From Streptomyces sp. B21-083 (GTDB lineage Bacteria > Actinomycetota > Actinomycetes > Streptomycetales > Streptomycetaceae), in NCBI RefSeq assembly GCF_036898825.1, contig NZ_JARUND010000001.1, positions 4,650,001 to 4,714,000 on the forward strand: a DNA stretch of 64,000 nt, read 5' to 3'. The translations under genes were made by a program, and so were the position numbers. The notes beneath the pieces were generated by a model. That model did no database searches and had not been told where the DNA came from. It was given only the letters and a program-made list of their open reading frames with translations. Shown here in pieces: positions 19,054 through 37,354 of this stretch. Position 1 is the first letter of the stretch. The number at the start of each line of letters is the position of its first letter.

Positions 19054-19101
19054 CCGTAGACCCTGTGGGACTCGAACCCACAACCAATGGATTAAAAGTC
19101 C
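19054..19101. repeat. Left attachment repeat (att core, tRNA-Lys 3' copy)
   Basis: 48 bp identical to 37307-37354, covering the tRNA-Lys 3' end, T arm, variable loop and anticodon region. Identity stops abruptly at 19102, inside the anticodon stem. Confidence 0.92.
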
Positions 19102-19118
19102 TGGCCGGATCGTGCTGC

Positions 19119-19161
19119 GTGGTTCCGGACGCTGACTTGGTGTCCGGAACCACCAGGTCAG
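19119..19161. other. Overlapping inverted repeats at island left end
   Basis: GTGGTTCCGGAC (19119-19130) pairs perfectly with 19142-19153. CTGACTTGGTG (19132-19142) pairs with CACCAGGTCAG (19151-19161) with one mismatch. The two hairpins overlap and exclude each other. They begin 18 bp inside the att core, where recombinase or excisionase sites are expected. Confidence 0.6.
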
Positions 19162-19211
19162 GACAGGTTCGTAGTGGGGTGCGGTCCACGTCAGGATGGC
19201 TCCTGCCGCAC

Positions 19212-19225
19212 CATCCGCTCACGCA
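19212..19225 (+). other. Candidate arm-type integrase site, left
   Basis: CATCCGCTCACGCA, identical to 37193-37206. It lies about 110 bp inside the left core and in the same orientation as the right copy. Confidence 0.4.
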
Positions 19226-19549
19226 GAAGAGTCACAGGTCGGAAGTCAACGACCGCAAACGGCGCAGCATGATCGCCGGAGTACAAGAAGTCCCGCCATT
19301 GGGGGAGCCGCTCGTCGGCATGCCGCACCACCTGCTGCACCTCGACCGCTTCCTGAGGTCAGTCCACCGTGAACGTCAAACACAGCCCAGGCGTGCCCCA
19401 GGGACAACACTGTGAGCGGAGACCCACAAACCCTGCGCAGACGATCACACTCTTGATGCAAGCGTAAGCGGCGAGCACCGACACCAAGGCCCGCGCGCTG
19501 TACCCGGATTGGGGCGCCGAGCAGATCCACGACGAGGTCCACCTCCCCC
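19226..19549. other. Island left arm without clear gene
   Basis: Short open frames here (for example one around MPHHLLHLDRFLR and one around KARALYPDWGAEQIHDEV) look like coding debris but do not join into a recognisable protein. Probably decayed cargo. Confidence 0.35.
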
Positions 19550-19813
19550 TCAAAGAGAGGGGGGTGCTTGTTCCTGGTCCTGCTTTCTTTTCTTCCTAAC
19601 GGCTCGACGACGCTCCCACCTCCTCCTTTTTAAAGCTGCATGCTTCCGGCGGTGCTCCCAAAAGGCAATCCACCACATGTAGAGGTCATGCGATTCCTTT
19701 GGAAGGACTACGCGGGCGAAACCCAGCACAAAGATCAGGAAGAATGCAGCCCACCATGGCATTTCAGCAAGGGCACTCTGAGGGATTTCAAGCACGGCGA
19801 AGACTCTCTGCAC
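19550..19813 (-). CDS. Small hypothetical membrane protein
   Basis: An 87-aa product from GTG 19813. One TM helix (about 18-38, MPWWAAFFLIFVLGFARVVL) is followed by a strongly basic tail (KRRRWERRRAVRKKRKQ), giving a positive-inside topology. GC is lower than the chromosome average. The ribosome site is weak, so both start and reality are moderate. No family recognised. Confidence 0.45.
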   Translation of the reverse strand: MQRVFAVLEIPQSALAEMPWWAAFFLIFVLGFARVVLPKESHDLYMWWIAFWEHRRKHAALKRRRWERRRAVRKKRKQDQEQAPPSL

Positions 19814-19849
19814 GAAGATAACTTTCGGGCCCGCTCTTAAAAATCTCCA

Positions 19850-20707
19850 CTAAATGCGAATCTTAAGAACCGAATCACTAAGAGTCACTTCGTACGCCCT
19901 GCTGCTTTTCGCGAGCCTTGCTCCAGAAATACCGACCGTAGGGTCAGCTAGCGCAGCCGCGACATCTTCCGGATAGGGAAGCCCTGTCCACTGGGCTTCC
20001 CATTCATCGCCTGCCCCCCAAAGCCTGCGCCGAGGATCCGAGTCATCATCGCGGCCTCTGCCCTCATCACGCCGCAACGGGTCCCAGTACCAGTTCCCTG
20101 TGGCCCACCGCCCCTTGGGGTCAGCCATGGACATACGGGCAGCAATACCAGCCAATAGAGTCTGAGCTGTGTCACCCATGGGAGGAACGTCGGCAAGCTG
20201 GCGCTCCTCTACCGGGTCCAAAGGGTCATCAAGCGTGCGAAAATCGAAGTGCGAGCCTTCTCGCACCCTCTGCAGCTTGCCGTCTAGCCGACTCGTGACC
20301 ACCAATTGTGCCCCCGTAGGGACATGCTCCAACGCATACGTCCGGTAGTCGTACATAGCCCGCAATCGCAACCCTGGAAGCCTTGGGGTGCTATCACCAT
20401 GCGGCACCAGATACCTGGTGACGTTATCTGGGGCATCGCTGATGAATACCAGCTGATTCCACCGAGGCGACACTGTAATCGTGTACCAGGTGAGGGTGCT
20501 CAACAACCACTTCGCGGGAGGCGCACCGTCTTCGCCGCGGTTAAATAGACCGAGAGCCAGCAAAGCGTTCATCTTCCGCTGACCCGGCGCGCACGAATCC
20601 AACCCATGAGTGCGGTCGTTTGAGATTCCAGCAAGCGCAGCTTCGTAAATCTCACCGGAATACGCTTTGCGCATGTGTGCAGCTCGCTTCTTTACAGAAT
20701 TTGGCAT
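19850..20707 (-). CDS. Hypothetical protein, island cargo
   Basis: A 285-aa soluble protein with no family I can name. The N-terminus is basic and helical (MPNSVKKRAAHMRKAYSG). The centre is mixed alpha/beta with LTWYTITVSPRWNQLVFIS and TGAQLVVTSRLDGKL. An acidic linker (RDEGRGRDDDSDPRRR) precedes a C-terminal strand-rich end (YEVTLSDSVLKIRI). The ribosome site GAGG sits 9 nt before ATG 20707. Third-position GC is lower than in the core genes, marking it as acquired. It is transcribed leftward, toward the att site. Confidence 0.6.
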   Translation of the reverse strand: MPNSVKKRAAHMRKAYSGEIYEAALAGISNDRTHGLDSCAPGQRKMNALLALGLFNRGEDGAPPAKWLLSTLTWYTITVSPRWNQLVFISDAPDNVTRYLVPHGDSTPRLPGLRLRAMYDYRTYALEHVPTGAQLVVTSRLDGKLQRVREGSHFDFRTLDDPLDPVEERQLADVPPMGDTAQTLLAGIAARMSMADPKGRWATGNWYWDPLRRDEGRGRDDDSDPRRRLWGAGDEWEAQWTGLPYPEDVAAALADPTVGISGARLAKSSRAYEVTLSDSVLKIRI

Positions 20708-21108: not shown

Positions 21109-21852
21109 ATGAGTATCGATATCCCCTGGGCGCGCAATGAGTTGGACCAGTTCCTGCAACTGACCGAGTTGTACAGGCCAACGGACCCTCCGGGCGTACT
21201 CACGGTCAGCAGCCGACTTTCCAACCGCGGTTCCCAGGCTGACATCGTGGCCAGCGCTCACGTGGTGGAACAGATCCTGGACCGCGCCTTGCCGCACTGG
21301 CGTACTGAGGTTCCGAGCAAGAACAACAGCACTGTGAACCGCTGGTGGCAACACAGGGAGACCGCACAACGAGCGCTCGCCGCCCTCCAGAGGGACGAAG
21401 AGGTCAGAGCCCGCCTCGGTGATGACGCTCCCCAGGTGAGCGCGGCCACCATGCATCCATGGGCATGGGAAGGGGCTCGCGCGCTGTGGCGCAGCGGGCA
21501 CTTCCGGGAGGCGGTGACAGCAGCTGTACGGAAGGTCAACGCCGAGACGCAGAACAAGATTGGCCGCCGGGATGCCAGCGAGACCAAGCTCTTCCAGAGC
21601 GCCTTTTCGCTGAACGCCCCCAAGCCCGACGAACCCCGCCTACGACTCATGGAAGACGACGGCAGCGACACCTTCCGCAGCCTCCACCGGGGAGCTATGG
21701 CCTTCGCCGAGGGCTGCTACGCCGGCATCCGCAATCCGAACAGCCACGAGGACGGCCTCCCCGAGCTTCCAGGGCATGAGGCGCTTGAGCAACTCGCGGC
21801 GTTCAGCGTGCTCGCCCGCTGGGTGGACGTGTCGAGCGTGCTCTCGACCTGA
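21109..21852 (+). CDS. TIGR02391 family protein
   Basis: A 247-aa protein. The C-terminal half matches the TIGR02391 (Ymh-type) domain: HPWAWEGARALWRSGHFREAV, VNAETQNKIGRRDASET, GAMAFAEGCYAGIRNPNSHE (each a short motif). The N-terminal half is a helical region (ELDQFLQLTELYRPTDPPG). The family is common on prophages and defence-type islands, with proposed nucleotide or nucleic-acid roles (HEPN-like helical fold is my guess). The frame is open far upstream to 20620, but ATG 21109 opens the coherent part. It is probably a single-gene unit. Confidence 0.75.
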   Translation: MSIDIPWARNELDQFLQLTELYRPTDPPGVLTVSSRLSNRGSQADIVASAHVVEQILDRALPHWRTEVPSKNNSTVNRWWQHRETAQRALAALQRDEEVRARLGDDAPQVSAATMHPWAWEGARALWRSGHFREAVTAAVRKVNAETQNKIGRRDASETKLFQSAFSLNAPKPDEPRLRLMEDDGSDTFRSLHRGAMAFAEGCYAGIRNPNSHEDGLPELPGHEALEQLAAFSVLARWVDVSSVLST

Positions 21853-22093: not shown

Positions 22094-22873
22094 ATGGACG
22101 GTTCGATCCCCGCCTGGGCTCAGTCGCGGTTCGGCGAACACGCCGCGGCGATCCAAGGGGCAATATGGCGGGCCCTCAGCGAGACGGCTCAGGGAGTTGC
22201 TGACATCCGGGCAGCCTCACGGAACAAGAAGGGGTTCGCCCCCGGCGGTGAACGTGCTGTCGACCAGTTTGAACTCCTGGTCGGCGAGCTGGAGGAACTT
22301 GGGATCGAGGGCACCGAGGTCATCAGCACGGGCTCCTGGTACGGCTTGCCTCTCGTGCTGAACACGCTCATCTATCCCGTCCATACGCAGAACGGGGACG
22401 AGCACGTAGACCGATGGCCCCGTCGGAAGTTGTCGAAGCTGATGAAGGAGATCTTCGCTTCGACAGCTGCAGGTCGAAGGTGGGTAGCCGATCCCATCAG
22501 CGGCTTCGAGATCGAGGACGAACTCCGTGCTTCGCTAGCCGATCTCGCAGGGCGTGACCCGAGGCCGCGCCTGGTGCTTGTTGTCTATGAGTTGGATCGT
22601 TCAGGGCTGAAGCGCGTCTGGTGGGGTGAGGCTGAGCTCCGGAGTGGAGCGGGCGCTATTCGATGGCTGACGGAGCGTTCGCCACTCGTAGCCCCACTCG
22701 CCACCCCGCTTGCTCTTGTGGCCGACGAGGCAGGAGATGATCGGTTCGACTCGGGCGACTTGCCAGACCTGCCGATGGCCGACAGGCCCGACGAGGAGCA
22801 ACACTCTGAGCAGCCCCTGCCCACCGAGCAAGCAGACGAGACCGACGACACCATAGAGAGTGATGAGAACTGA
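22094..22873 (+). CDS. Hypothetical protein coupled to XRE-ImmA peptidase
   Basis: A 259-aa protein of unknown family. Residues 1-190 look globular (SRFGEHAAAIQGAIWRALSE, TGSWYGLPLVLNTLIYPVH, RLVLVVYELDRSGLKRVWWG). Residues 195-259 form a very acidic, low-complexity tail rich in Asp, Glu and Pro. ATG 22094 follows GGGAGTG. Its 3' end overlaps the start of the next gene by 11-14 bp, so the two are co-translated. By analogy with gene pairs containing an ImmA/IrrE partner it could be the effector or the cleavage substrate (inference). Confidence 0.6.
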   Translation: MDGSIPAWAQSRFGEHAAAIQGAIWRALSETAQGVADIRAASRNKKGFAPGGERAVDQFELLVGELEELGIEGTEVISTGSWYGLPLVLNTLIYPVHTQNGDEHVDRWPRRKLSKLMKEIFASTAAGRRWVADPISGFEIEDELRASLADLAGRDPRPRLVLVVYELDRSGLKRVWWGEAELRSGAGAIRWLTERSPLVAPLATPLALVADEAGDDRFDSGDLPDLPMADRPDEEQHSEQPLPTEQADETDDTIESDEN

Positions 22874-24026
22874 TCATCCAACGATCCCCGGCCTTGGTGG
22901 GGTGTCCCCCAAGGCCGTCTGGGATGCGTTCCACCCGCCTCGCCTCACACAAGCCCGCCATCTAGCAGGCATGACCAAGAAGGACGTTGCCCAGGGCATC
23001 GGCGTATCTCCTGCCGCTGTCGGACAGTACGAGACGGGCAGTAGTAAACCGCGGCCAGATCTTCTGCCTCGGTTGGCTGATGTCCTAGAAGTCCCGATCG
23101 AGTTCTTCCTCGCGGGTAGGCCGATTGGGAAGCTGGACACCTCCATGGCTTATTTTCGCTCGTTGCGGTCTACGAGCGGGGCGCAGAGGAGTCGGGCACT
23201 CGGCCTCGCAGGGCAGGTATGGGAGTTGACTTTTGCCCTGGAACGTCGCGTTCAACTACCTCTTGTCAATCTTCCTGGATTCACTGGTGGCGAAGTGCAC
23301 CCGGGGACCGATTTGCCTTCTGCCGCCAGAGAAGCCGCGCAAGAACTTCGCGCGTATTGGAACCTCGGTCGGGGCCCCGTCAAGCACTTGGTACGACAAC
23401 TGGAGACTCATGGAATCGTAGTCTCCGTTCCACCCGAGGCCGATGAAACTGCAACTAGAATTGACGCATTTGCAACTTCGGGCCTACCTCGCCCGCTTAT
23501 GGTACTAACCCATAATCGCGCAGATGATGTGTACAGGCACCGGTTCAGTGCAGCGCACGAGTTGGGTCACCTGGTCCTACATTCCTCCTCCGCTGGAGAC
23601 AACCAACAAGAGCGAGAGGCTGACGCTTTCGCGGCCGAATTTCTCACCCCACGAGCCAGCATCCTCCCCCTCCTTCCACGCAGAATGGACCTAGCGCAAC
23701 TCGCTGACTTGTCACGCACCTGGGGCGTCTCAGTCAAATCCCTGATCTATAGATGTCGTGAGCTTGGCCTTGCATCGGATGCCACTGCAAGTCGCGCCTA
23801 CCAAAGGCTGAATGCTCTGTCTGACCAGCCAGGTTTCTCACCGGAACCTGTGGCGCGATTTCCTGGCGAGCAATCAATCCTGCTCCAACGAGCCTTCGAG
23901 CTCGCGCAGAAAAGTCAAGGGCTGACAATTCGAGAATTGGCGAAGGAGTTGGCCTGGAAGCCAGAACGGGTCCGGGAGATTCTCGGATTCCGAGAGTCTC
24001 GGCCAATTCTTCGCCTGGTCGATTGA
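22863..24026 (+). CDS. XRE HTH - ImmA/IrrE metallopeptidase fusion
   Basis: A 387-aa protein. The N-terminal XRE HTH is at residues 27-85 (MTKKDVAQGIGVSPAAVGQYETG). The ImmA/IrrE zinc peptidase domain centres on HELGH (His232-His236), with the third ligand in EREADAFAAEFL near 250. A C-terminal helical region ends with a second HTH-like stretch (LTIRELAKELAWKPERVREILG). Such proteins bind DNA and are activated to cleave a partner or repressor, as in the ICEBs1 ImmA-ImmR system, or act as antitoxins. ATG 22863 lies within the end of the preceding gene; GTG 22860 is an alternative. Confidence 0.85.
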   Translation: MRTDHPTIPGLGGVSPKAVWDAFHPPRLTQARHLAGMTKKDVAQGIGVSPAAVGQYETGSSKPRPDLLPRLADVLEVPIEFFLAGRPIGKLDTSMAYFRSLRSTSGAQRSRALGLAGQVWELTFALERRVQLPLVNLPGFTGGEVHPGTDLPSAAREAAQELRAYWNLGRGPVKHLVRQLETHGIVVSVPPEADETATRIDAFATSGLPRPLMVLTHNRADDVYRHRFSAAHELGHLVLHSSSAGDNQQEREADAFAAEFLTPRASILPLLPRRMDLAQLADLSRTWGVSVKSLIYRCRELGLASDATASRAYQRLNALSDQPGFSPEPVARFPGEQSILLQRAFELAQKSQGLTIRELAKELAWKPERVREILGFRESRPILRLVD

Positions 24027-24080: not shown

Positions 24081-24581
24081 CTAACGCCACCCGTCCAGCG
24101 ACACCTGGGGACCGTCGGTTAGGTACCGGTGGAGGGCGCTGGCAGTGGTGTCCACGAACTCTTCGGGGATCGCATCGGTATCGACCCATTGGACCTGTGC
24201 ATGTTTACGCGGTTCGCGGTTTTCGGGTTCGCCGGTCCATTCGTGAGCGGCGAAGACTACTGTGAGAAAGCCGTTGGGAGCTTCAACGCCCCAGGCACCG
24301 TGGATGATGTGAGCGACCTTCAGGGACTCCGGTTTCACCATCAGCCCGGTCTCCTCGTACAGCTCCCGTACTGCAGTCTCGGTGACAGGCTCGCCGGGTT
24401 CGCTCTTGCCGACGGGGAGGTCCCACATGCCCTGGGCGAACTTGGCGTTCTGACTCCGCTGGAGGAGCACAACCCGGTTGGTGGCCTTGTCGTGGACGAT
24501 GACGGCGGCGACCAGCAGGGTCATGGATTCGAGGGCGGGCGGTAGGGCTTTGGGCTGATCGTCGGTTGTCCGCTGAGCCAC
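24081..24581 (-). CDS. Nudix hydrolase
   Basis: A 166-aa Nudix protein. The complete Nudix box G-x5-E-x7-R-E-L-x-E-E-T-G-L is visible as GKSEPGEPVTETAVRELYEE plus TGL, preceded by GMWDLPVGK. GTG 24581 follows GAAGGGA. It hydrolyses a nucleoside-diphosphate-linked substrate (not predictable). The Pif protein that blocks conjugal re-entry of the AICE pSAM2 is also a Nudix protein, so an element-immunity role is a reasonable alternative. It lies just downstream, on the same strand, of the XRE/TPR regulator (36-bp gap). Confidence 0.85.
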   Translation of the reverse strand: MAQRTTDDQPKALPPALESMTLLVAAVIVHDKATNRVVLLQRSQNAKFAQGMWDLPVGKSEPGEPVTETAVRELYEETGLMVKPESLKVAHIIHGAWGVEAPNGFLTVVFAAHEWTGEPENREPRKHAQVQWVDTDAIPEEFVDTTASALHRYLTDGPQVSLDGWR

Positions 24582-24617
24582 GGCTGGTGTCCCTTCGTCG
24601 GCCGGTTGGTGGGCAGC

Positions 24618-25973
24618 TTAGGCCAGCGCTTCGCGTGCGCGGCGGGCGAGTTCGCCCGCTCCGGGCACTTTGCGGCGCTGGTAGATGGAAAGGGTGGAGC
24701 GGACCGAGGTGATGGCTTTGCGGGTGCGGTCGGAGGTCATGCCTTCCATGAGGGTCAGGGCCTGGCCCCAGACGGCGACGGCCTCATCGGCGCGAGCCTG
24801 GGCGGCGAGACTGTCGCCGAGGTCGGCGTAGGTGAGGGCGTGGACTCGCTTGTATTTCTCGGGGTCCCAACGGATCAGAGCGTCTCGGTGCTGTTGCTCG
24901 GTGCCGATGTGGTCGGCGAGGGCGGTGAGTGTGCGGGCGGTGTGGCTGGCGACCGTGCCGGCGGCGGGGCCACTGACGCGGGAGTAGCTGGGCTGAGGAA
25001 GGTCGTCGCGCAGGAGGGCGTCTTCGGCGGCGAGCAGGGCGCGGGCCGCTGCGGGCCTCTCGCCGACGGCTGCGAAGGCGCGGGCGTGGGTGATGTGGAG
25101 GAGGGCTTCGGTCTGGCCGTCGACGTGCCCGAGACCGCGGACGAGCGCGCCTTCGACGAGGTCGACGCAGTGGTGGGGCTGCTTGAGGCTGAGGGCCTGG
25201 TGGGCGAGGGCCCGCATCATCCAGGCGGCGTGGCCGTGCGGGTCGGCTTCCCAGGCGAGCTGGTAGCCGACCTGGTAGTAGCGCTGGGCGGCGCCCTCTT
25301 GGCCGAGGTCGTGGTGCTTCCACCCTGCCAGGTAGACGAGTTCGGCCACGGCGCCGAAGGCTGCCCGCCGTAGAGCTTCGCTCGCGTAGCGGCCCCGGAG
25401 CATGGGCGCGGCGGTGTCGGCGAGGTAGGCGGTGACCGTGGTCAGGCCGTGGCCGCCGCCGAGGCGTTCGTCGGCCGCGCTGAAAGCCGCAGTGATCTGC
25501 CGTACGACGTCCACGTCCTCTGCTCCGACCACGGACGTGCCGGTGCGGGCGCGGAGCATGCGCGTGGTGGCCTCGTGATCGTGGGCGAGCGGCATGGCGA
25601 CGCCGGCAGTGGTGAAGGCGGCCACCGCGAGGAAGCGGCGGCGCTCAACATCAGCCCGACCGAGGTCAGTTGCGGCCAGGACAGGATCCCCGTCGGCCGA
25701 CTCCTCGCCATCTTGTGCGCGTAGGCCGATCTCGGTCTGGGTGATGATGCGGCCCGTTCGGCGTGACAAGGCTTCGGCGAGGTACTGGCCGGTCCGTCCG
25801 GTGGGCTGGCGGGTGCCGTTGGCCCAGTGGGAGACAGCCGACTTGTTCGTCTGGAGGATCTCGCCGTTCTCGGCCGCGATGCGCCGGACGTCTCTCGCCA
25901 GTGCCTCGTAGGTGCAGCCGGTCGCGGCAATGGTGTCGCGCAGGCGGGAGTTGGGGTCTCTCGGCGCTGCCAC
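24618..25973 (-). CDS. XRE regulator with TPR-like C-terminal domain
   Basis: A 451-aa Streptomyces-type regulator. An N-terminal HTH (about 10-60; TNKSAVSHWANGTRQPTGRT) is followed by a long helical TPR-like region with repeated Ala-rich helix pairs (AAMLRGRYASEAL, GHAAWMMRALAHQALSLKQP, YADLGDSLAAQARADEAVAVW in outline). It faces the four-gene cassette at 26.2-29.2 kb across a 220-bp shared promoter region and is followed on its own strand by the Nudix gene. It is the likely regulator of both sides; its signal is unknown. Confidence 0.8.
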   Translation of the reverse strand: MAAPRDPNSRLRDTIAATGCTYEALARDVRRIAAENGEILQTNKSAVSHWANGTRQPTGRTGQYLAEALSRRTGRIITQTEIGLRAQDGEESADGDPVLAATDLGRADVERRRFLAVAAFTTAGVAMPLAHDHEATTRMLRARTGTSVVGAEDVDVVRQITAAFSAADERLGGGHGLTTVTAYLADTAAPMLRGRYASEALRRAAFGAVAELVYLAGWKHHDLGQEGAAQRYYQVGYQLAWEADPHGHAAWMMRALAHQALSLKQPHHCVDLVEGALVRGLGHVDGQTEALLHITHARAFAAVGERPAAARALLAAEDALLRDDLPQPSYSRVSGPAAGTVASHTARTLTALADHIGTEQQHRDALIRWDPEKYKRVHALTYADLGDSLAAQARADEAVAVWGQALTLMEGMTSDRTRKAITSVRSTLSIYQRRKVPGAGELARRAREALA

Positions 25974-26196
25974 GCTCGCCTCCCCTTCGGGGTTGTAAAC
26001 CGCGTATACCGCTTCAACTGCCTCTCACCGTACCCACTGTGCGTGACGAAGGGTTCACTAATCACCAGCCGCCCGGCCCCGGTCCGACACCGTGACCAGG
26101 CTCCCCCTTCGGTCGGGCGGCCCCGAAGTTCCGTACGCCTACACCGGGTTCGGGCATTCCTGTGCCCGAACCCGGCCGATCAGAGACGGAGACACG

Positions 26197-27021: not shown

Positions 27022-27933
27022 GTGACCGCGAACCCCAGCACCGAACTCCTCGACAACCTGCTCACCCTGGCCGGCCAGACCACCGCCGTTCGCGAGGAAG
27101 TGCGCGTGTGGTCCATGTCCGGCGTCGAGCGCCTGACCTTCCCCGACGGCGCCACCGCCATCTTCAAGTATGCCAAGAGGCCCTTCGACAGGGAGGACCA
27201 GGCCCTCCGGCTGGCTCACACCCTCGGTGTCCCGGTGCCTGTCGTTCACGCCTCCGCAGTGCTGGACGGCTGGCTCGGGATGCTGCTGGAAGACCTCGGC
27301 GCCCCCGTTCGCGAGGCCGACGACCTCGACGGCGCTGCCGCAGCCGTTGTCCTGCATGGCACCCGCACGGCTGCCGCCCTGCCCGTCCTGGACCAGGAAC
27401 GGTTGCGCACCCTGCCGAGCCGAGCCCTGGAGCACCTCGGCCGACTCCGCAAGGCCGACCGGTGGCAGGATGCGGACGACGTCGAGGACGCCCTCGACCG
27501 GATTGTTCAAGCCGCCGAGCCCCGCTCGGCCGGTGCGACGGTGGCTCCGTTCGGCTGGGTGCACTCCGAGTTCCACCCAACCAGCCTCCACATCGGCCGG
27601 CACGGCTGGCGGCTGCTGGACTTCGCCCGCGCCTTCACCGGCCCCGGCCTCCTCGACCTGGCCAGCTGGCACGGCACGCTCGACACCCCCGATCCCGTAC
27701 GCCTGCGAGTCTTCCTGGACACCTACGTCACCGAAGGCGGCACCCCCGACGCCCTCGCCGAACGAGGCGGCCTGCCCGCCGAGAAGTGGGCACTGGGCTG
27801 GCACCGCACGTGGGCCGTCGAGTGGTTCATGGAGCAGTCCATCCGCTGGGTCAACGATCCGGCCACCGACCCCGCCTACATCAAGGCCGTACGCCGTCAC
27901 CTCACCGATGTCCTCCACCTCCTGGAGGTCTAG
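27022..27933 (+). CDS. APH-like kinase with altered catalytic motif
   Basis: A 303-aa member of the aminoglycoside/choline kinase fold. The ATP-site lysine is in TAIFKYAKR (Lys49). The equivalent of the catalytic HGDxHxxN motif reads HSEFHPTSLH (181-190), so the usual Asp is Glu and the Asn is Ser. The metal-binding D-F is LLDFARAF (Asp200). The changes suggest a specialised or weakened kinase rather than a standard resistance enzyme. GTG 27022 follows TGGAGCC. The stop abuts the methyltransferase start with no gap. Confidence 0.75.
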   Translation: MTANPSTELLDNLLTLAGQTTAVREEVRVWSMSGVERLTFPDGATAIFKYAKRPFDREDQALRLAHTLGVPVPVVHASAVLDGWLGMLLEDLGAPVREADDLDGAAAAVVLHGTRTAAALPVLDQERLRTLPSRALEHLGRLRKADRWQDADDVEDALDRIVQAAEPRSAGATVAPFGWVHSEFHPTSLHIGRHGWRLLDFARAFTGPGLLDLASWHGTLDTPDPVRLRVFLDTYVTEGGTPDALAERGGLPAEKWALGWHRTWAVEWFMEQSIRWVNDPATDPAYIKAVRRHLTDVLHLLEV

Positions 27934-29312: not shown

Positions 29313-29963
29313 GTGCTGGCTGAGCAGACGAAGCGTTTCAAGGCCAACGTCGCCGGCGAAGTCCGGCGGAGAAGAAAGGAGATGGCGTGGAGCGCTCAGG
29401 ACTTGGCCGACGCGTGCGAGCAACTCGGGCACCCCATCCCGCGCAACGTGATCGCCAACATAGAGTCCGGCCGCCGGGCCAGCCTTCCCCTGGTGGACGT
29501 CATGGTCCTGGCCGCCGCTCTGGAGACGTACCCGGTCTGTCTGATCTTCCCGGTCGGCTACGTCGACCGGACCCAGGAACTCCCCTTCCAGAACCTCGTG
29601 CCCACCTGGGATGCCCTACGGCGCTTCACCGGCGACGAGGACATGCCCTTGTACGACGCGGGCCTGATCCCCGACTTCGAAGCACACGCCAGCCTCGTAC
29701 GGACCGCCCTGGCCGCCCTCGAAGAGGAAGAACGGGCACGGTTCGCAGCCAAGACGGCAACCAACCGCGCCCAGCAGGAAGAAGCCGAGCGCAGGCGGAC
29801 CAAGTACGCCGACGAGGCCATCTCCGCCAAGTACAACCTCCGCTACCTCCGCCGCGACATCCGCGACGAAGGCGCCACCCCACCCCACCTGCCACCCGCC
29901 CTGGGCGACGTCGACCCACCCGAACCGCGAGACCCCAACACCACCCCGGAGGAACGCCTTTGA
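29313..29963 (+). CDS. XRE family regulator next to integrase
   Basis: About 216 aa. The N-terminal HTH is at about residues 13-65 (SAQDLADACEQLGHPIPRNV, IESGRRASLPLVDVMVLAAAL). The middle is uncharacterised, followed by a Glu/Arg coiled segment (EEEERARFAAKTATNRAQQE) and a Pro-rich tail. GTG 29313 or TTG 29307 are possible starts. Its stop overlaps the integrase start (TTGA), so it is co-translated with the recombinase. The position is that of an excisionase or integration regulator in AICE-type elements. Confidence 0.7.
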   Translation: MLAEQTKRFKANVAGEVRRRRKEMAWSAQDLADACEQLGHPIPRNVIANIESGRRASLPLVDVMVLAAALETYPVCLIFPVGYVDRTQELPFQNLVPTWDALRRFTGDEDMPLYDAGLIPDFEAHASLVRTALAALEEEERARFAAKTATNRAQQEEAERRRTKYADEAISAKYNLRYLRRDIRDEGATPPHLPPALGDVDPPEPRDPNTTPEERL

Positions 29964-30631
29964 AGGGCTCCACCCACCGCCACTGCTACTGCCGTGACCC
30001 CAAGACCGGCAAGCCGCTCGGCAAGAACTGCCCCAAGCTCTCCAGCCGCAAGCACGGCTCATACTCCATACGCCAGGAACTCCCACCGAACGAAGACGGC
30101 GTCCGCCGCTCCTTCAGCCGCGCCGGCTACGAGTCCCTCAAGGCCGCGCAGTCAGACCTCGACCACGTCCGTTCACTGCTGGCGCTGGCAGAGAAAGACG
30201 ACCCCGACAGCCTGCAACGCCTCGTCGACATGCTGGAGAAGGTCGCGGTCGAAAAGGCGCCACTCCCGGCCGTCGAAGAGACCCGGCGCCGTCTGAGGGC
30301 GGGCTTGGCCCTACGTGGCAACCTCACCGTCGGCGAGTGGCTAGACCAGTGGTTCGCCGCGAAGAAGCGCCGCAAGACCACACTCAACGCCTACGCCTCC
30401 CACATCCGCGTCCACTTGAAGCCGCGCATCGGGCACGTACGCCTCGACCGGCTCAACGTCGGCCACCTGGTGGAGATGTTCGACGCGATAGCCGACGACA
30501 ACGAGGTGGTCGCAGCCGAGAACGAGGCCCGCCGCGAGCAGATCGCCCGCTGCAAGCCGAGCACGCCCGGTCGCCCTGTGGGAGCGGAGCGGAAGCGGCT
30601 CGCGCCCGAACGAACCAAACTGGCAGGATGA
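29960..30631 (+). CDS. Tyrosine integrase, N-terminal part (arm and core-binding domains)
   Basis: TTG 29960 behind GGAGG gives a 223-aa product. The N-terminal Cys/His segment (HRHCYCRDPKTGKPLGKNCP) and GSYSIRQELP are typical of Streptomyces element integrases. A coiled stretch is followed by the SAM-like core-binding domain (LTVGEWLDQWFAAKKRRKTT, HLKPRIGHVRLDRLNVGHLV). It stops at TGA 30629-30631 in the linker before the catalytic domain, which continues in the -1 frame from ATG 30628. It is either a frameshift mutation or a split integrase. Confidence 0.8.
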   Translation: MKGSTHRHCYCRDPKTGKPLGKNCPKLSSRKHGSYSIRQELPPNEDGVRRSFSRAGYESLKAAQSDLDHVRSLLALAEKDDPDSLQRLVDMLEKVAVEKAPLPAVEETRRRLRAGLALRGNLTVGEWLDQWFAAKKRRKTTLNAYASHIRVHLKPRIGHVRLDRLNVGHLVEMFDAIADDNEVVAAENEARREQIARCKPSTPGRPVGAERKRLAPERTKLAG

Positions 30632-31485
30632 AGCCGTTCCGGAAGATCACCGGCCCGGCCACCCGTCAGGCGATCCGCCGCACCCTGCGCACGGCCCTAA
30701 ACTCCGCGATCGCCCAGCAGCTGATCACCTTCAACCCGGCGTCCCACGTCGAGTTGGAGTCAGGCAGGCGCCCGAAGCCCCTCCTGTGGACCGATGAACG
30801 CGTCCGGCGGTGGCGAGAGACCGGTCAGATCCCCGGCCCGGTCATGGTGTGGACGCCACAGCAGTTCGGCGCCTTCCTCGACGCGGCCGAACGCGACCGG
30901 CTTTACGCGATCCTCCACCTCATGGGCACCCGTGGCCTCCGGCGCGGCGAGGCGGTCGGCCAGGACTGGCACGAGATCGACCTCGACGCCGGCCTCATCA
31001 CGCCCGCCAAGGAGATCGTGGTGGACGGCTGGGACCCCTACGAGTCGGAGCCGAAGACGGACGGCAGCGCGAACACGATCGCGCTCGACAGCACGACCAT
31101 CTCCGAACTACGCGACCACAAAGCCCGCCAGGACAAGGAGCGCGCGAAGTGGGGCGACGCCTGGCAGGACACAGGCAAGGTCTTCACGAAGGAAGATGGC
31201 TCGTGGCTCCACCCCGAGACGGTCTCCGAGACCTTCCGCCGCATCCTCGCAACGACCGACCTGCCGCCCATCACCCTGCGGGACCTACGCCACGTCACCG
31301 CGACGCTCGTGCACGGAGGTGGCGGCGACATCCACACGGTGAAGGAGACGCTGCGGCACTCCACCATCACGCTGACCTCGGACACGTACACGAGCTTGCT
31401 CCCTGAGCTGGACCGTGAGATCGCCGAGGCCGCAGTAAAGCTCGTACCTCGCGCCCGCGAGCGGAAGATTGAGGGAAAAAATTAG
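30628..31485 (+). CDS. Tyrosine integrase, C-terminal catalytic domain
   Basis: A 285-aa product from ATG 30628, which overlaps the N-terminal half's stop (ATGA) behind GGCAGG. Catalytic residues visible: Arg in GTRGLRRGEAV (105/106), Lys143 in EPKTDGS, LRDLRHVTATL (Arg218 where most family members have His, then Arg221), His244 and nucleophile Tyr254 (SDTYTSL). All but the first His of HxxR are present, and Arg there is tolerated in some actinobacterial enzymes as far as I recall. Re-initiation could make a two-subunit recombinase; otherwise the island is locked in place. Confidence 0.85.
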   Translation: MKPFRKITGPATRQAIRRTLRTALNSAIAQQLITFNPASHVELESGRRPKPLLWTDERVRRWRETGQIPGPVMVWTPQQFGAFLDAAERDRLYAILHLMGTRGLRRGEAVGQDWHEIDLDAGLITPAKEIVVDGWDPYESEPKTDGSANTIALDSTTISELRDHKARQDKERAKWGDAWQDTGKVFTKEDGSWLHPETVSETFRRILATTDLPPITLRDLRHVTATLVHGGGGDIHTVKETLRHSTITLTSDTYTSLLPELDREIAEAAVKLVPRARERKIEGKN

Positions 31486-31521: not shown

Positions 31522-32751
31522 GTGGAGAACGAGAGCAATCTGCCCCTCACACTGATCACGATCGACCGTGCGTCGTCGAGCACGGTGGTCTCCCGCCTGG
31601 ACGGGAACGGGGCATGGCAGATTCCAGCGCCTTCCCTGTTCGAGGACACGAGCGTAGTGGCCAAACTAGAGTTCAGCCCGGCGCTACCAGCACTTCTCGT
31701 CACTACCCTGGCAGGGGACCAGATTCTCTTCGAGTTGCCGCTTCGAAGGGCCGCTAATCAGCTCGAAGGACGGCTCGTGGTGTATCTCGACCAGAACCAA
31801 TGGAGCACTTTGAGCAATTCCTGCCATGACCTGCAGAAGAGTAGCGAGAAAGATCAAGCCGCTGGTCGAAAGCTCAAGGATTGGGTGGAACAACGTCGGA
31901 TCATCCTGCCAGCCTCTTCCAGCCACTATTTCGAGACCGGCAAGCGGTTCAGTACGGAAAAGCGCTACGCCCTTGGGCTCACGGTCTTGCAGTACAGCCG
32001 GGGCTGGCAGATGCGCGACCCCCTGCAGGTCCGGCGAAACGAGCTTCACGATGCCTTCTGCCATCGACTGGGGCGCCCCGGCGAAATACGCTCCGCCCCG
32101 ATCTTCACCCTCGATCCGGATGCCCTCTTCTCTCCAATTCGATGGACTGACTCCGGGCTGCCTCCGACGTTGCTGAGCCAGTTTGGGTTCCACCTCGACG
32201 CGCTTGTCGCTGCCTCTGCTTCCATCGACACCATGCTCGACACCGAACGGATAGGTGAGGGACAAGACACCGGCTGGACGGCGGCAAGTCAGCGGTTCAG
32301 CGACTGGCTAGACGAACTGGATCAGGATTCACAGCAAAAGCGGAGGGCTGTCGACATCCACATCATTACGGATCTTCAGCAGGAGTTGGCTGAGGAGGCG
32401 GCTACGGCGGGAGTTCCCACAGAGCTATTCGGGCAGTGGGGCTTCAAGGGATGGGTGCGGGCGATCGGCGAGTCCCCCGCCGTTGGCCTCTTCCGGGAAA
32501 TGCTTCATAGTCGGCACCTCAACAAGGGAACGACGTGGCGACGCAATGATTTGCCGGACATGTTGTACCTGTCCTGCGCAGCCGGATACGCGGACGTCGT
32601 CGTCTGTGAGAAGCACATGCGTGACCCATTGCAGCGAGGCTTGAAGCGCATGGGACGGTCGGCACAGGTCTACCGTCGGCTTACCGACGCTGTAGCGGCG
32701 ATCGAGGAGCTTTTGGAAGTGCCTTCTTCCTCTGTCAGTCCCGCGCAGTAG
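31522..32751 (+). CDS. PIN-like domain protein, candidate nuclease
   Basis: A 409-aa protein with no exact family known to me. After an N-terminal beta-rich region of about 80 residues, VVYLDQNQWSTLS (Asp90) looks like the first acidic strand of a PIN-like nuclease. Acidic and helical parts follow, and near residue 350 DLPDMLYLSCAAGYADVVVC supplies later acidic positions typical of the fold. GTG 31522 sits behind AATACT, so it may be leaderless. It is immediately downstream of the integrase on the same strand, a usual site for accessory, defence or toxin cargo. The nuclease role is inferred from motif shape only. Confidence 0.55.
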   Translation: MENESNLPLTLITIDRASSSTVVSRLDGNGAWQIPAPSLFEDTSVVAKLEFSPALPALLVTTLAGDQILFELPLRRAANQLEGRLVVYLDQNQWSTLSNSCHDLQKSSEKDQAAGRKLKDWVEQRRIILPASSSHYFETGKRFSTEKRYALGLTVLQYSRGWQMRDPLQVRRNELHDAFCHRLGRPGEIRSAPIFTLDPDALFSPIRWTDSGLPPTLLSQFGFHLDALVAASASIDTMLDTERIGEGQDTGWTAASQRFSDWLDELDQDSQQKRRAVDIHIITDLQQELAEEAATAGVPTELFGQWGFKGWVRAIGESPAVGLFREMLHSRHLNKGTTWRRNDLPDMLYLSCAAGYADVVVCEKHMRDPLQRGLKRMGRSAQVYRRLTDAVAAIEELLEVPSSSVSPAQ

Positions 32752-32991: not shown

Positions 32992-33789
32992 CTAATCCAG
33001 GTTCGGCAGCTCGCCAAATCCGCTGCAGGGGTGAAGGCACCGGTAGCAACAGACGTCTCTGCCCGTCGGGTCCTCGCCCAAGCCGTGCTGGAGAACCTCC
33101 TGGCTCAACTCAATCTTGGCGAAGCGGGCCAGGGGGTCTCTGGGCCGGGACACCAAACTCACTTCGTGGAGCTGCAGTTGGGACATAACCGGCCGCGGAA
33201 AGGCGGAGACTGTCTCGCCATCGGTGTGTGAACAGCTGAGCCGACCGCAAATGCTGCACGTTCCGTCAGCGTCATGGCACACGGTGATGTCGTATCGGGT
33301 ATCGAGCAAGTGCGGGCAGGAATCGATGTCCTGCCCGCACAATGAACAATCGCGAGTCGCGGTGAAGCCGGCAGACATGCCCCATCTGCTGTGCATGAGC
33401 GTGAGTCGGCATACGTCCCAGTAGGCGTCGTCGGAGTACTCGATGTTGCAGCCGAAGAGTCCACCTACGAGGGCTGCGACGTGGTGAGCGTGTCTGTGAG
33501 CGAGTTCGGAAAGCTCGTTGTCCTCAAGGAAGTTGTAGGCGTCAACTGCACGTGCGAGCGAGGTGCGTGCCGCCGCTTCCAGGTCATGCCATGGATCGGT
33601 GAGCTGGGGCTTGTCGCGCGGCAGCCGGAGAGAACGCGCCATTGCCAGGTACTGGCGGTGGCCCCGCCGGTCAGAGGTGGACGAACCGATAAGAAGCGGA
33701 GAGAGCCGAGTACGCGCCGCAATGTTGGCTCGTAGTTGGCGTCGAGCTTGCGACCACACGTGGATAAGGAAGTCCCGTTGTGCGCTCAT
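32992..33789 (-). CDS. Cys/His-rich protein, C-terminal part of IS-interrupted gene
   Basis: A 265-aa product from an internal ATG. Two zinc-ribbon-like Cys clusters are visible: CSLCGQDIDSCPH and CSICGRLSCSH, plus VCCYRCLHPC near the end. The N-terminal helix is basic (HVWSQARRQLRANIAART). The gene is not intact: 30 bp before this ATG an IS3-family element interrupts it, and the missing N-terminal 80 residues are on the other side (35090-35302). Removing the IS and one GCT target copy restores a 345-aa frame. No family is known. Confidence 0.6.
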   Translation of the reverse strand: MSAQRDFLIHVWSQARRQLRANIAARTRLSPLLIGSSTSDRRGHRQYLAMARSLRLPRDKPQLTDPWHDLEAAARTSLARAVDAYNFLEDNELSELAHRHAHHVAALVGGLFGCNIEYSDDAYWDVCRLTLMHSRWGMSAGFTATRDCSLCGQDIDSCPHLLDTRYDITVCHDADGTCSICGRLSCSHTDGETVSAFPRPVMSQLQLHEVSLVSRPRDPLARFAKIELSQEVLQHGLGEDPTGRDVCCYRCLHPCSGFGELPNLD

Positions 33790-33876
33790 CGTCCACAGTC
33801 CGCGGCGGTGGATTGGGCTTGATCCGCTTTGACGGACATTCGAGATCAGGGGTTCTGCCCCGGGAGGATGTCCATC

Positions 33877-34185
33877 ATGGAGAGCATGGGGAAGAAGAAG
33901 CCTCGCCCTCGCCGTTCGTTCACGCCGGAGTTCAAGGCCGAGATCGTCGAGCTGTGCCGACGCGGTGACCGCTCGGTCGGTCAGATCGCCAAGGACTTCG
34001 ATCTGACCGAGACCGCGGTGCGGCTGTGGGTCAGCCAGGCCGAGGTCGACGCGGGCGAGCGGGACGGCCTGACCAGCGGTGAACGCGAGGAACTGGCGTC
34101 CCTGCGGCGGGAGAACCGCCGGCTGCGCGAGGACGTGGAGGTCCTCAAGCGTGCGACGGCTTTCTTCGCGAAGGAGACCCGGTGA
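33877..34185 (+). CDS. IS3-family transposase OrfA
   Basis: A 102-aa protein. The HTH_Tnp_1 domain (FTPEFKAEIVELCRRGDRSV, IAKDFDLTETAVRLWV) binds the terminal repeats. A leucine-zipper-like helix (LRRENRRLREDVEVLKRATA) follows. ATG 33877 lies 9 nt after GGGAGG. Its stop overlaps the orfB start (GTGA). Confidence 0.9.
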   Translation: MESMGKKKPRPRRSFTPEFKAEIVELCRRGDRSVGQIAKDFDLTETAVRLWVSQAEVDAGERDGLTSGEREELASLRRENRRLREDVEVLKRATAFFAKETR

Positions 34186-35054
34186 CGGTCCACCCGTTCA
34201 TCGAGGCGGAGAAGCGTGCAGGTCACAGCGTCAAACGGGCGTGTGAACTGCTGAAGGTCTCCCGGACCGCCTTCTATGCCCGCCGCACCGGCACGCCCGG
34301 TCCACGCGCGGCCCGTGACGCCGAACTGGCGGCACAGATCACCGATGTCCACACGCGATCGCGGGGAACCTACGGTGCCCCGCGCGTGCACGCCGTGCTC
34401 AAGCGGGCGGGTGCCGGGTGCGGGCGGCGCCGCGTCGCCCGGCTGATGCGGGCAGCCGGCCTGCAGGGCGGGCATCGCAGACGGCGGCACCTGACGACGG
34501 TCCCCGATCCGCGGGCTGTTCTGCGGCCCGATCTCATCGTCCGCGACTTCCAGCCCGACCCCGACGGGCTGAATACCCGCTGGTGCGGCGACATCACCTA
34601 TATCGCCACACAGGAGGGCTGGCTCTACCTGGCCACCGTCATCGACATCGCTTCCCGCCGCGTGGTCGGCTGGGCAACGGCTGATCACCTGCGGACCGAT
34701 CTCGTCGCCGACGCCCTGACGAACGCCTGCCGGCAACGTCGCCCCACCGCTCCGGTGATCTTCCACTCGGATCGCGGCTGTCAATACACCAGTCAGCAAC
34801 TTGCCGCGCTGGCAGACCAGTTGGGGGTGCGTCTGTCGGTCGGCCGCACCGGGCAGTGCTGGGACAACGCACTCGCCGAGTCGTTCTTCGCCACCATCAA
34901 ACGCGAGTTGCTCGACACCACCGCCTGGCCCAGCCGGGCCTCCGCCCACACCGCGATCTTCGATTTCATCGAGGGCTGGTACAACTTGCACCGTCTGCAC
35001 AGCAGCCTCGGCTACCGCAGTCCCGCCGAATACGAGACCGCATCCGCAGCCTGA
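34182..35054 (+). CDS. IS3-family transposase OrfB (DDE, rve integrase core)
   Basis: A 290-aa catalytic subunit. An N-terminal HTH_21 region (RTYGAPRVHAVLKRAG-like, seen as GTYGAPRVHAVL) precedes the retroviral-type integrase core. DDE residues lie in WCGDITYI (first Asp), IFHSDRGCQYTS (second Asp) and ALAESFFATIKRELL (Glu). GTG 34182 overlaps the orfA stop. The full-length frame suggests an active or recently active element. Confidence 0.92.
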   Translation: MTVHPFIEAEKRAGHSVKRACELLKVSRTAFYARRTGTPGPRAARDAELAAQITDVHTRSRGTYGAPRVHAVLKRAGAGCGRRRVARLMRAAGLQGGHRRRRHLTTVPDPRAVLRPDLIVRDFQPDPDGLNTRWCGDITYIATQEGWLYLATVIDIASRRVVGWATADHLRTDLVADALTNACRQRRPTAPVIFHSDRGCQYTSQQLAALADQLGVRLSVGRTGQCWDNALAESFFATIKRELLDTTAWPSRASAHTAIFDFIEGWYNLHRLHSSLGYRSPAEYETASAA

Positions 35055-35089
35055 CCACCACACCAATGGTGTCCGTCAAAGCGGAACAA

Positions 35090-35302
35090 GCTCAGGATTT
35101 CCTCTGTCGTCGATGACCAGGACGGAAGGTGGGCCAAGGACCGGCCCCAGGTGAGGGAGATGCTGCGACAGCACTGCCCGTACAGGCGCATGGATTCTCG
35201 CAGAGCCGTCACGCCGTCCTGGTGCAACATAGCCAGGCGCACAGGGCCTGACGCCGGGGGCAAAGGCACCCCGGTGCGGATGACGAGGCCGGAGACTCTC
35301 AT
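35090..35302 (-). pseudogene. N-terminal fragment of the IS-interrupted gene
   Basis: 71 codons from ATG 35302 (MRVSGLVIRTGVPLPPASGP ... TTEEILS) up to the IS end. The frame continues on the other side of the element as PIHRRGLWTMSAQRD. Its ATG overlaps the stop of the upstream membrane gene (ATGA), showing that the two formed a translationally coupled operon before the IS arrived. Confidence 0.8.
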
Positions 35303-35868
35303 CCTGTGGTGTCCCCCGCAGCGGCATCGTCCGGGTCGGCTGGGGGAAGCTCAGCACGGGCCGGGTCGGACACGGCCGCTTGGATGAGGTTCTCGATGTC
35401 CGCCAACCGACTGGTGATCTCCAGACCCCGGATGGCCGTTTCGTTCTCGGTCCGAACGATCTCAGCGATCTTGACCGTTACACGTGCCTCGTCGACCTCG
35501 TCGTCAGGGCAACTGGGCCCCAGAGAGGAGCGTGCCCGCTGCCAGACGGTCAGAACGATGCCTTTGACCAGATCGGTGGTGAGCGTAGTGGCCACAGCGA
35601 TGCCGATGGTGGCCACGACCTCGGTGGCCCCGTACTCACTGAGATAGCGGCGGTCTTCTCGCGCGCATGCGAAGTCGATGTCCACGCCACGGTGTCGCAG
35701 TGTCTTGATCAAGCCGGCCACGTCGTCCCGGTAGACGGCCATCTCGTCGATGCTTGAGTCGGGGAGCAGGAACACGCGGTCGCCCGTTGGGGCAGTCAGC
35801 ACTGTCTCGGGCAGGTCTGCCGCTGAGATGTCCCAGCGTGTCACATCACCGGTGATCTCTTTGGCCAT
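35299..35868 (-). CDS. Hypothetical membrane-associated protein, first gene of interrupted operon
   Basis: A 189-aa protein. The N-terminal half is mixed alpha/beta (DRVFLLPDSSIDEMAVYRDD, LIKTLRHRGVDIDFACARED). A single hydrophobic stretch, about 85-108 (EVVATIGIAVATTLTTDLVKGIVL), follows, then a coiled acidic tail (IAEIVRTENETAIRGLEITS). ATG 35868 follows GAGAGGG at about 10 nt. It is coupled by an ATGA overlap to the Cys-rich gene disrupted by the IS. No family is recognised. A small membrane-linked partner for a zinc-rich effector would be one reading (inference). Confidence 0.6.
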   Translation of the reverse strand: MAKEITGDVTRWDISAADLPETVLTAPTGDRVFLLPDSSIDEMAVYRDDVAGLIKTLRHRGVDIDFACAREDRRYLSEYGATEVVATIGIAVATTLTTDLVKGIVLTVWQRARSSLGPSCPDDEVDEARVTVKIAEIVRTENETAIRGLEITSRLADIENLIQAAVSDPARAELPPADPDDAAAGDTTG

Positions 35869-36114
35869 CAGCAGGAGCCCTCTCGTGATTGAGCGTTGTG
35901 CGCGTACCCAAGCCTAAAGCGGCGTGGGACCGCGCTGTCCCGCACGCAGTAGTCCACTGAAGTCTGGTGTTGAGTGGACTGCCGTCAGTCATGCCAGATC
36001 AGTTGGAGGGTGTGGGCTACTGCTCTGACATCGCAGGCTGAGAAAACGATGGATGAGCTAGGACTTGTCCGCCCGATCATGTGACTGTCTGACTGTTGGC
36101 TCGTTGTGTCAGGC

Positions 36115-36609
36115 ATGGGGCGGGGTGACTTGACGGATGGCGAGTGGGAACGGCTGCGGCCGTTCCTTCCGGTCAGCAACGGGCGTTGTGGCCGGTGGCG
36201 GGATCACCGGCAGGTGATCGACGGGATCCTGCACCGGGTGCGGACCGGGGTGCAGTGGCGGGATCTGCCCGAGCGGTTCGGTCCGTGGAAGACGGTCTAT
36301 GAACGCCACCGGCTGTGGTCGGCCGACGGCACCTGGGAGTGTCTGCTGCAGCAGGTCCAGTCCGCGGCCGACGCGGCCGGTGAGATCGACTGGGACATCG
36401 CGGTGGACTCCACCATCGTGCGTGCGCACCAGCATGCGGCCGGTGCTCGCACCGATCCGCCGCCGGCCCCCGGCTCAAAGGGGGCCGAAGTCCCAGAACA
36501 CCAGGCCGAGACGCCGTGGCAGAGCCTGCTCGCCCGCCTGGTGGAGGTGGTGCAGGAGGTGAGGGCCTGGGCCGCTCGCGCGGCGGGTTCACCAGCAAGC
36601 TCCACCTGA
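36115..36609 (+). CDS. IS5-family transposase, N-terminal frame
   Basis: ATG 36115 opens the DUF4096-type N-terminal domain (LTDGEWERLRPFLPVSNGRC, GVQWRDLPERFGPW) and the first catalytic Asp (DIAVDSTIVRAHQHAAG). Productive coding continues to about 36560, where translation must shift to the other frame to reach the catalytic C-terminus. The last 15 residues in this frame are out-of-frame read-through. Confidence 0.85.
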   Translation: MGRGDLTDGEWERLRPFLPVSNGRCGRWRDHRQVIDGILHRVRTGVQWRDLPERFGPWKTVYERHRLWSADGTWECLLQQVQSAADAAGEIDWDIAVDSTIVRAHQHAAGARTDPPPAPGSKGAEVPEHQAETPWQSLLARLVEVVQEVRAWAARAAGSPASST

Positions 36610-37046
36610 GCGCCGACGGGTGCTGCCGACCGCTGTCCCTGGTCGTCACCGGCGGCCAGCGCGCGGACTGCACCCAGTTCGAGGCCGTCCTGGAGAAGAT
36701 TCGTGTCCCCCGCGGCGGGCCGGGCAGGCCCCGCACCAAGCCCGACAGCCTCGCCGCGGACAAGGCCTACAGCAACGGCCCGTGCCGCCGGTACCTGCGC
36801 CGCAGGGGCATCCGGCACACCATCCCGGAGAAGACCGACAGCCAGGCCGCCCGCCGGCGCAAAGGTTCGCGCGGCGGACGGCCACCCGGCTTCGACGAAG
36901 AGCGATACAAGAAGCGCAACACCGTCGAGCGGGCGATCAACAGGCTCAAGCAAGCCAGGGCCGTGGCCACCCGCTACGACAAACGCAGATACGTCTTTCT
37001 CGGCACCGCCACCGTCGCAGCCCTCGTCATCTGGCTCCGCACATGA
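36516..37046 (+). CDS. IS5-family transposase, C-terminal frame
   Basis: The frame is coherent from LGRSRGGFTSKLHLSADG onward. It carries the second Asp (LAADKAYSNG) and the catalytic Glu in KRNTVERAINRLKQARAVAT, then YDKRRYVFLGT. It overlaps the first frame by about 90 bp, so a programmed frameshift joins the two halves, as known in IS427-type elements. Confidence 0.85.
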   Translation: MAEPARPPGGGGAGGEGLGRSRGGFTSKLHLSADGCCRPLSLVVTGGQRADCTQFEAVLEKIRVPRGGPGRPRTKPDSLAADKAYSNGPCRRYLRRRGIRHTIPEKTDSQAARRRKGSRGGRPPGFDEERYKKRNTVERAINRLKQARAVATRYDKRRYVFLGTATVAALVIWLRT

Positions 37047-37065
37047 TCGGGCGGACAAGTCCTAG

Positions 37066-37306
37066 TTACCTTCGGCTGCGGCCATCCGTCGTACCGCAGC
37101 ACGGGGCGAGAGGTGCCGCGTCGCAGCGAAGCCTCGCAAACGTGCCGGCGAGGGATCTTGTCAGCACCACCAAACGTGCGGCCCTGATCGAACATCCGCT
37201 CACGCATCGCTCACGCAGACCCCCGAAAACGCCACAGCGCCCGACCCGACCGAGGTCGACTCAGGCGCTGCGTTGCAGGTCAGAGGGGGTATCCCTCACC
37301 CGCGAA
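37066..37306. other. Island right arm
   Basis: 240 bp without a gene. It holds the direct repeats at 37193-37217 and a CAGCGCC/GGCGCTG hairpin (about 37235-37270) followed on the minus strand by GGCGTTTTCGGGG. That sequence copies the tail of the chromosomal tRNA-Lys terminator and so provides a replacement terminator for the tRNA. Confidence 0.5.
37193..37217 (+). other. Candidate arm-type integrase sites, right
   Basis: CATCCGCTCACGCA (37193-37206), followed at once by a second CGCTCACGCA (37208-37217), making an 11-bp tandem. It ends about 90-100 bp inside the right core, mirroring the left arm. Confidence 0.4.
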
Positions 37307-37354
37307 CCGTAGACCCTGTGGGACTCGAACCCACAACCAATGGATTAAAAGTCC
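37307..37354. repeat. Right attachment repeat (att core inside tRNA-Lys)
   Basis: The same 48 bp as at 19054-19101, here continuous with the rest of the functional tRNA-Lys. Confidence 0.92.

Follow-up and report, generated by a model that had tools for sequence, protein, structure and literature searches.

A genomic island at tRNA-Lys in Streptomyces sp. B21-083 is probably the relic of an integrative mobilizable element

An island bounded by exact repeats of a tRNA-Lys gene

We analysed a stretch of 64,000 nucleotides (the window) from Streptomyces sp. B21-083, whose genome comprises 10.5 Mb in 5 contigs, and focused on a genomic island that we interpret as the probable relic of an integrative mobilizable element (IME). 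The island is delimited by a 48-bp direct repeat, the attachment (att) repeat, whose two copies (19054-19101 and 37307-37354) match at 48 of 48 positions, share the same orientation and enclose 18,301 bp (19054..37354). The right copy belongs to an intact tRNA-Lys(ttt) gene (37309-37382, minus strand; Rfam tRNA, 73.7 bits), of which it makes up the 3' part, and the left copy is a tRNA-Lys remnant, a truncated 3' part that reaches 25.1 bits with the Rfam tRNA model, under the Rfam cut-off. Even with up to 3 mismatches allowed, the 22-bp core of the repeat has no further match in the window (chance expectation, 0). The left part of the island is also GC-poorer than the chromosome, with a GC fraction of 0.58-0.65 across 19-25 kb of the window compared to mostly 0.65-0.75 outside the island. 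The exact repeats and the intact tRNA gene bear out an original prediction, made from the letters of this DNA, that an island with 48-bp att repeats is inserted at tRNA-Lys(TTT).

The window copy still carries a RosmerTA-like gene pair, a six-gene module and a set of cargo genes at its right end, the right bay. A gene for a helix-turn-helix (HTH) protein and a tyrosine integrase gene lie between the module and the right bay. A Pfam scan of 20 open reading frames (ORFs) of the island yielded no FtsK/TraB, replication-initiator or relaxase domain, in agreement with the earlier view that this copy is devoid of transfer and replication genes.

Vacant sites and related elements

The tRNA-Lys region was searched in 150 genomes of the genus, and 22 tRNA-Lys loci of at most 20 kb each were compared; because these were the best-scoring matches, the sample is biased to near relatives. 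Fourteen of the loci (L042, L044, L045, L047, L050-L053, L055-L058, L120 and L121) are unoccupied: they contain one att copy, lack an integrase of the island's family and have 3.3-14.6 kb between tRNA-Met and tRNA-Lys, compared to 31 kb in the window. Vacant sites, which the original prediction had expected, thus exist: the block is not carried at this place by all related strains, nor is the repeat shared with unrelated tRNA remnants. The other eight loci include four with an integrase (L039, L043, L048 and L049), two with two att copies and no integrase (L041 and L054), and two with one att copy and tRNA-Met out of reach (L040 and L046). At the empty site of genome G140, sequence resembling window positions 15996-16134 (72% identity) stops 16 bp from sequence like that at 37221, beside the tRNA, and the window stretch 16135-19053, outside the repeat, is therefore also variable. 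This stretch to the left of the att repeat, missing from the G140 site, contains a GntR/UTRA regulator.

With the intact integrase gene of genome G091 as query, matches at E≤1e-100 were obtained in 60 of 246 genomes, and 20 loci were examined. Both att copies at tRNA-Lys(ttt), plus a related integrase or its remnant, are present in 14 related elements (G189, G243, G234, G023, G080, G158, G074, G013, G228, G091, G104, G018, G219 and G063), and the islands span 5.8 to 30.4 kb. G228 and G063 carry a truncated or disrupted integrase. One end is unseen in G142, G012, G169 and G029, and in G020 and G209 the integrase is more distantly related and the stretch examined contains no tRNA-Lys. In seven relatives no more than about 0.2 kb separates the integrase from the tRNA, and the others carry different genes between the two, such as the SpoIIE, DUF5994 and STAS proteins encoded between integrase and tRNA in the right bay of G234.

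A short motif, GCTCACGC, recurs at fixed distances from the ends of these elements. In 13 of 15 islands (counting the window), one or more GCTCACGC sites occur close to both ends, beginning 160-183 bases in from the left end and 144-158 bases short of the right end. Ten of the 15 have two copies, spaced 11 bp apart, at each end. A second left copy, 11 bp further in, occurs in 11 of the 15 islands and is absent from the window, which retains one left site (19217..19224, plus strand) and both right copies (37198..37216, plus strand). The motif is missing near the ends in G074 and G013, and island interiors hold 0-4 additional copies each on the same strand. We interpret these sites as putative integrase arm sites.

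Two further loci of the B21-083 genome resemble parts of the island. A third, partial tRNA-Lys remnant (41 bp, 98%) is located at C1:1041653-1041693 (L183); the surrounding 20 kb contain no related integrase. An intact integrase with 61% identity to that of G091 lies beside tRNA-Met and tRNA-Asn genes at C2:3200068-3201576 (L181).

A scar where relatives carry mobilization and replication genes

The predicted proteins of the 15 islands, comprising the window and the 14 relatives, were clustered. Relaxase, DUF2637-type and DUF3631 (RepAM) proteins are present in 8 of the 14 relatives and MobC in 7. In seven elements (G023, G080, G091, G104, G189, G234 and G243) these mobilization and replication (mob/rep) genes form a minus-strand cluster immediately preceding the HTH and integrase genes, although a direct tblastn search of G023 found only the relaxase (42%) and RepAM. 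The G091 copies match PF03432 (1.4e-9, relaxase), PF05713, PF10935 and PF12307, and a relaxase motif was seen in all 30 inspected relaxase matches.

The closest relative, which occupies the same site in G091, carries the six-gene module and, between the module and the HTH-integrase genes, the relaxase-MobC-DUF2637-DUF3631 block. Homology between the window and G091 runs from 24087 to 29332 and picks up again at 29338; the G091 sequence is about 5.7 kb longer at this point and holds these four genes there. The junction (29332..29338) swaps the first codons of the window HTH gene (29307..29963, plus strand; PF13560 4e-4, under the cut-off) relative to those of G091, and the replacement codons come from the left of the scar. 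In a tree of the C-terminal part of the integrase, the window is sister to G091 (support 0.96) and the neighbouring loci are mostly block-bearing, with no block in G063, G228 and G169. The simplest reading of this arrangement is a deletion of the mob/rep block in the lineage of the window.

No relaxase was found anywhere in the source genome by protein search or by a PF03432 search. Relaxases matching that of G091 at E≤1e-80 were found in 135 of 246 sampled genomes of the genus, and Streptomyces plasmids also encode related proteins. Among the matches listed, none of 18 integrase-bearing loci has FtsK/SpoIIIE inside the island, with one end unseen in 4 of the 18. Likewise, no match to the coupling-protein family PF02534 occurs inside the islands of the 20 genomes searched, VirB4 not having been searched for. 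A search of 18 relaxase-bearing hosts gave no PF02534 match in 9.

A broken integrase and two insertion sequences

The tyrosine integrase gene of the window (29960..31485, plus strand; PF00589 4e-11) is split into two frames (29960-30631 and 30628-31485) and is one base short compared to all four relatives examined (G091, G104, G189 and G013). The integrase noted originally is present, but its reading frame is broken.

Beyond the integrase, the right bay contains three genes that recur in G189 in the same order. Gene 1 (31522..32751, plus strand; 409 aa, 379 homologues) is 91% identical to its G189 counterpart and encodes a product that looks PIN-like by eye, gene 2 (32992..33789, minus strand; 265 aa) is Cys-rich and 84% identical, and gene 3 (35299..35868, minus strand; 189 aa) is 89% identical. 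Two insertion sequences (IS) reside among or after these genes in the window. An IS3-like element (33814..35094, plus strand) has HTH_Tnp_1 and rve domains, inverted ends and a GGAT on either side. An IS5-like element (36058..37065, plus strand) has DUF4096 and DDE_Tnp_1 domains and 26-bp perfect inverted ends that include CTAG at both sides. Neither element is present in the G189 bay, which is uninterrupted at both positions. Approximately 197 bp of the window (32795-32991) is also missing from G189.

Interpretation as an integrative mobilizable element and its alternatives

We consider it highly probable (roughly 0.85) that the window island is the relic of an IME that integrated at tRNA-Lys, lost its mob/rep genes and is now most likely fixed. 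A canonical IME has its own relaxase, no coupling protein and no type IV secretion system (T4SS). The intact relatives resemble this type in their integrase, att repeats, relaxase and MobC, and among the matches listed neither FtsK/TraB nor PF02534 lies inside the islands. They differ from it in additionally encoding DUF2637 and RepAM. An integrase or its remnant and att repeats occur in all 14 two-ended relatives and a relaxase of the element's own in 8, whereas the window copy, with its relaxase apparently lost, has neither its own relaxase nor an intact integrase.

In the intact relatives, the tyrosine integrase and its HTH partner would recombine the 46-48 bp core, probably via the putative GCTCACGC arm sites some 145-185 bp inward of each end. 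After excision, the relaxase and MobC of the element would nick its DNA and deliver it through the machinery of another element, and RepAM would replicate the excised circle. Cargo would be accommodated in two bays, one extending from the left end to the mob/rep block and the other from the integrase to the tRNA. The history of the window copy would then comprise integration, followed by the mob/rep deletion of about 5.7 kb, the integrase frameshift and the two IS insertions, and this copy is probably immobile. Dependence on a helper in trans, as originally proposed, fits the intact relatives better than the window copy with its scar and frameshifted integrase.

Several observations weigh against our interpretation. 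Six of the 14 relatives have no relaxase cluster, and three of these (G018, G074 and G219) share another block instead, with a Prim-Pol protein where scanned (G018). In G158 the relaxase-MobC genes lie about 12 kb from DUF2637-RepAM and on the other strand, and the G189 relaxase gene has one internal stop. The absence of mob/rep genes from the window could be ancestral, with a gain in relatives, and the integrase frameshift could be a sequencing error. Moreover, related integrases (55-61%) are found in a phage and in viral-classed contigs. In the G018 island, L176:4608-7219 encodes a Prim-Pol protein and an ATPase-like protein, and these clusters are common to G074 and G219.

One alternative, in line with the original prediction of a cargo vehicle that may depend on another element in trans, is an island that was without transfer genes from the start and relies entirely on functions supplied in trans. 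This view accommodates the lack of any mob, rep or tra gene in the window copy as well as the six relatives that have no relaxase cluster, and the genome does encode FtsK-domain proteins, one in a 540-aa open frame at C1:4747399. However, the closest relative has the relaxase-MobC-DUF2637-DUF3631 block exactly at the window junction, which cuts into the start of the HTH gene, and the window integrase is frameshifted. A cargo island lacking transfer genes by nature therefore seems improbable to us. A second alternative is a phage satellite or prophage remnant, mobilized either through packaging into phage particles or by excising jointly with an adjacent prophage. In its favour, the integrase of Streptomyces phage TurkishDelight is 60.6% identical, and 22 viral-classed contigs carry a related integrase. 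Three of these contigs (L264, L265 and L266) bear a relaxase-MobC-DUF2637-RepAM-HTH element with a 91% integrase, adjoining a second integrase (56-59%) with the core site between, and the core lies beside the integrase in 14 of the other 19. Given these integrases and core sites, phage-borne movement keeps some small probability, but the relatives carry a relaxase and MobC, and the window ORFs scanned (20 with Pfam, 10 with PHROGs) gave no match for a capsid, terminase or packaging gene, making this origin more improbable still.

We give the least weight of all to the island being what is left of an actinomycete integrative and conjugative element (AICE) after loss of TraB. The likeness to AICEs of the pSAM2 type is evident in the insertion site at a tRNA 3' end, the tyrosine integrase, the NUDIX gene of the six-gene module and, in the relatives, DUF3631, given that RepAM is one of the AICE replication proteins (PMC3218068). 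In contrast, neither an FtsK/SpoIIIE-type Tra protein nor a replication initiator was found among the scanned ORFs of the window copy, TraB/FtsK is equally absent from the 18 integrase loci of relatives within the limits given above, and relatives have a relaxase and MobC instead.

The relic of an IME, as we prefer to view the island, belongs to a kind of element that is already known. A 2017 review counted only one canonical IME in Actinobacteria (PMC5704250). Reports from Actinobacteria and Streptomyces (PMC3218068, PMC9513070) include T4SS-type integrative and conjugative elements and one type of IME, the latter in 8 of 11 Streptomyces strains (PMC9513070). We found no published description of a tRNA-Lys IME family in the accessible portions of the open-licence literature, and both this Streptomyces family and its six-gene companion look undescribed within the literature searched. 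The machinery that moves the intact tRNA-Lys elements is a concrete and testable question, and the window copy is a fossil whose main use is to draw attention to the family and to the six genes that accompany it in a fixed position.

A six-gene module often found beside relaxase genes

The module consists of two left-running and four right-running genes. On the minus strand are genes for a NUDIX hydrolase (24081..24581; PF00293 1.8e-20) and an NsdA-family tetratricopeptide repeat (TPR) regulator (24618..25973; NCBIfam NF053720 2.3e-103). A divergent promoter region (25974..26196), with conserved blocks in 18 aligned loci, separates these from four plus-strand genes: the signature gene P0008 (26197..26946; 496 homologues), a kinase-like gene (27022..27933), a gene for an S-adenosylmethionine (SAM) methyltransferase (27934..28632; PF13649 2.2e-15) and a HAD phosphatase-like gene (28663..29241; PF18143 2.4e-7). 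P0008 has no Pfam, PADLOC, NCBIfam or PHROG family match and no usable PDB match. The kinase-like protein of the window has no Pfam match, and the gene is named after its counterpart in a plasmid copy of the module, which is annotated as aminoglycoside phosphotransferase family. A leader hairpin before P0008 (26144-26175) is well conserved, with mostly one-sided changes in pairing counts over 30 rows.

P0008 is found in 40 of 246 genomes, including the source genome, and loci from 30 of the other 39 were compared, with 9 left out. The full six-gene set is present in 25 of the 30 loci, with a split methyltransferase gene in L113. In 16 of these 25, a relaxase match (at least 60% coverage) faces the HAD gene at a distance of at most 2.7 kb, the relaxase being split in L103 and partial in L107. 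The remaining full-module loci comprise two with relaxase remnants (L099 and L113), one with RepAM alone (L109) and six with neither relaxase nor RepAM (L094, L096, L102, L108, L112 and L119). None of the five loci without the full module has such a relaxase match. When grouped by shared DNA over 1.5 kb, the left flanks of the 25 full-module loci fall into 19 groups, whereas 19 of the 25 right flanks form a single group. An integrase-like match lies beyond the module or the mob/rep region in 15 of 16 right-extended loci, at only 21-34% identity to the queries. The stable right flank and the varying left flanks and integrases indicate that the module keeps its place while its left flank and integrase change.

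TPR regulators are known from other mobile elements. An exclusion function involving a NUDIX protein has been described for pSAM2 (PMC3218068). Because of these analogies, our guess is that the module serves metabolite-based control or stabilisation of the element. A more specific proposal, which we regard as unlikely, is that the module is a dedicated part of a widespread family of relaxase-bearing Streptomyces elements and either produces or detects a small, modified signal by which replication or mobilization is timed. If this were true, such elements would hitch-hike at times set by quorum or stress, within a genus mainly known for TraB-driven transfer of double-stranded DNA.

A RosmerTA-like pair and other cargo

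The left bay holds a likely new toxin-antitoxin pair. The downstream gene (22860..24026, plus strand) encodes a 388-aa protein with an XRE HTH domain and an M78 (ImmA/IrrE) peptidase domain (PF01381 and PF06114) that matches PADLOC RmrA models up to 9e-90, and it overlaps P0001 (22094..22873, plus strand), a gene for a toxin-like partner of 259 aa. P0001 has 17 homologues at E≤1e-3, and relatives at E≤1e-10 are found in 10 of 392 genomes, including the source genome. An RmrA-like gene directly follows the P0001 relative in all 11 loci (those of the 10 genomes and L059), and across these loci the RmrA-like proteins show 65-100% identity, whereas P0001 drops to 25%. RosmerTA systems pair a protease-domain antitoxin with differing toxins (PMC10440598). 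The window pair resembles these toxin-antitoxin (anti-phage) systems in its HTH-M78 antitoxin and its adjacent partner gene, and differs in that P0001 matches none of the Pfam, NCBIfam, PHROG and PADLOC families; P0001 may represent a further toxin type.

Two other left-bay genes precede this pair. A gene for 285 aa (19850..20707, minus strand), whose product has no Pfam, PADLOC, NCBIfam or PHROG match, has a 92% identical counterpart in the island that occupies this tRNA site in G063. A gene with a Hypoth_Ymh domain (21111..21852, plus strand; PF09509 3e-26) also gives a weak PADLOC HEPN match (3.2e-6), and its start was chosen by us within the ORF 20620-21852. Among the relatives, the G104 island (L123:16785-18254 and L043:3049-9509) carries a DRT-type reverse transcriptase gene (PADLOC RT_UG23 2e-196) and lantibiotic dehydratase-type genes.

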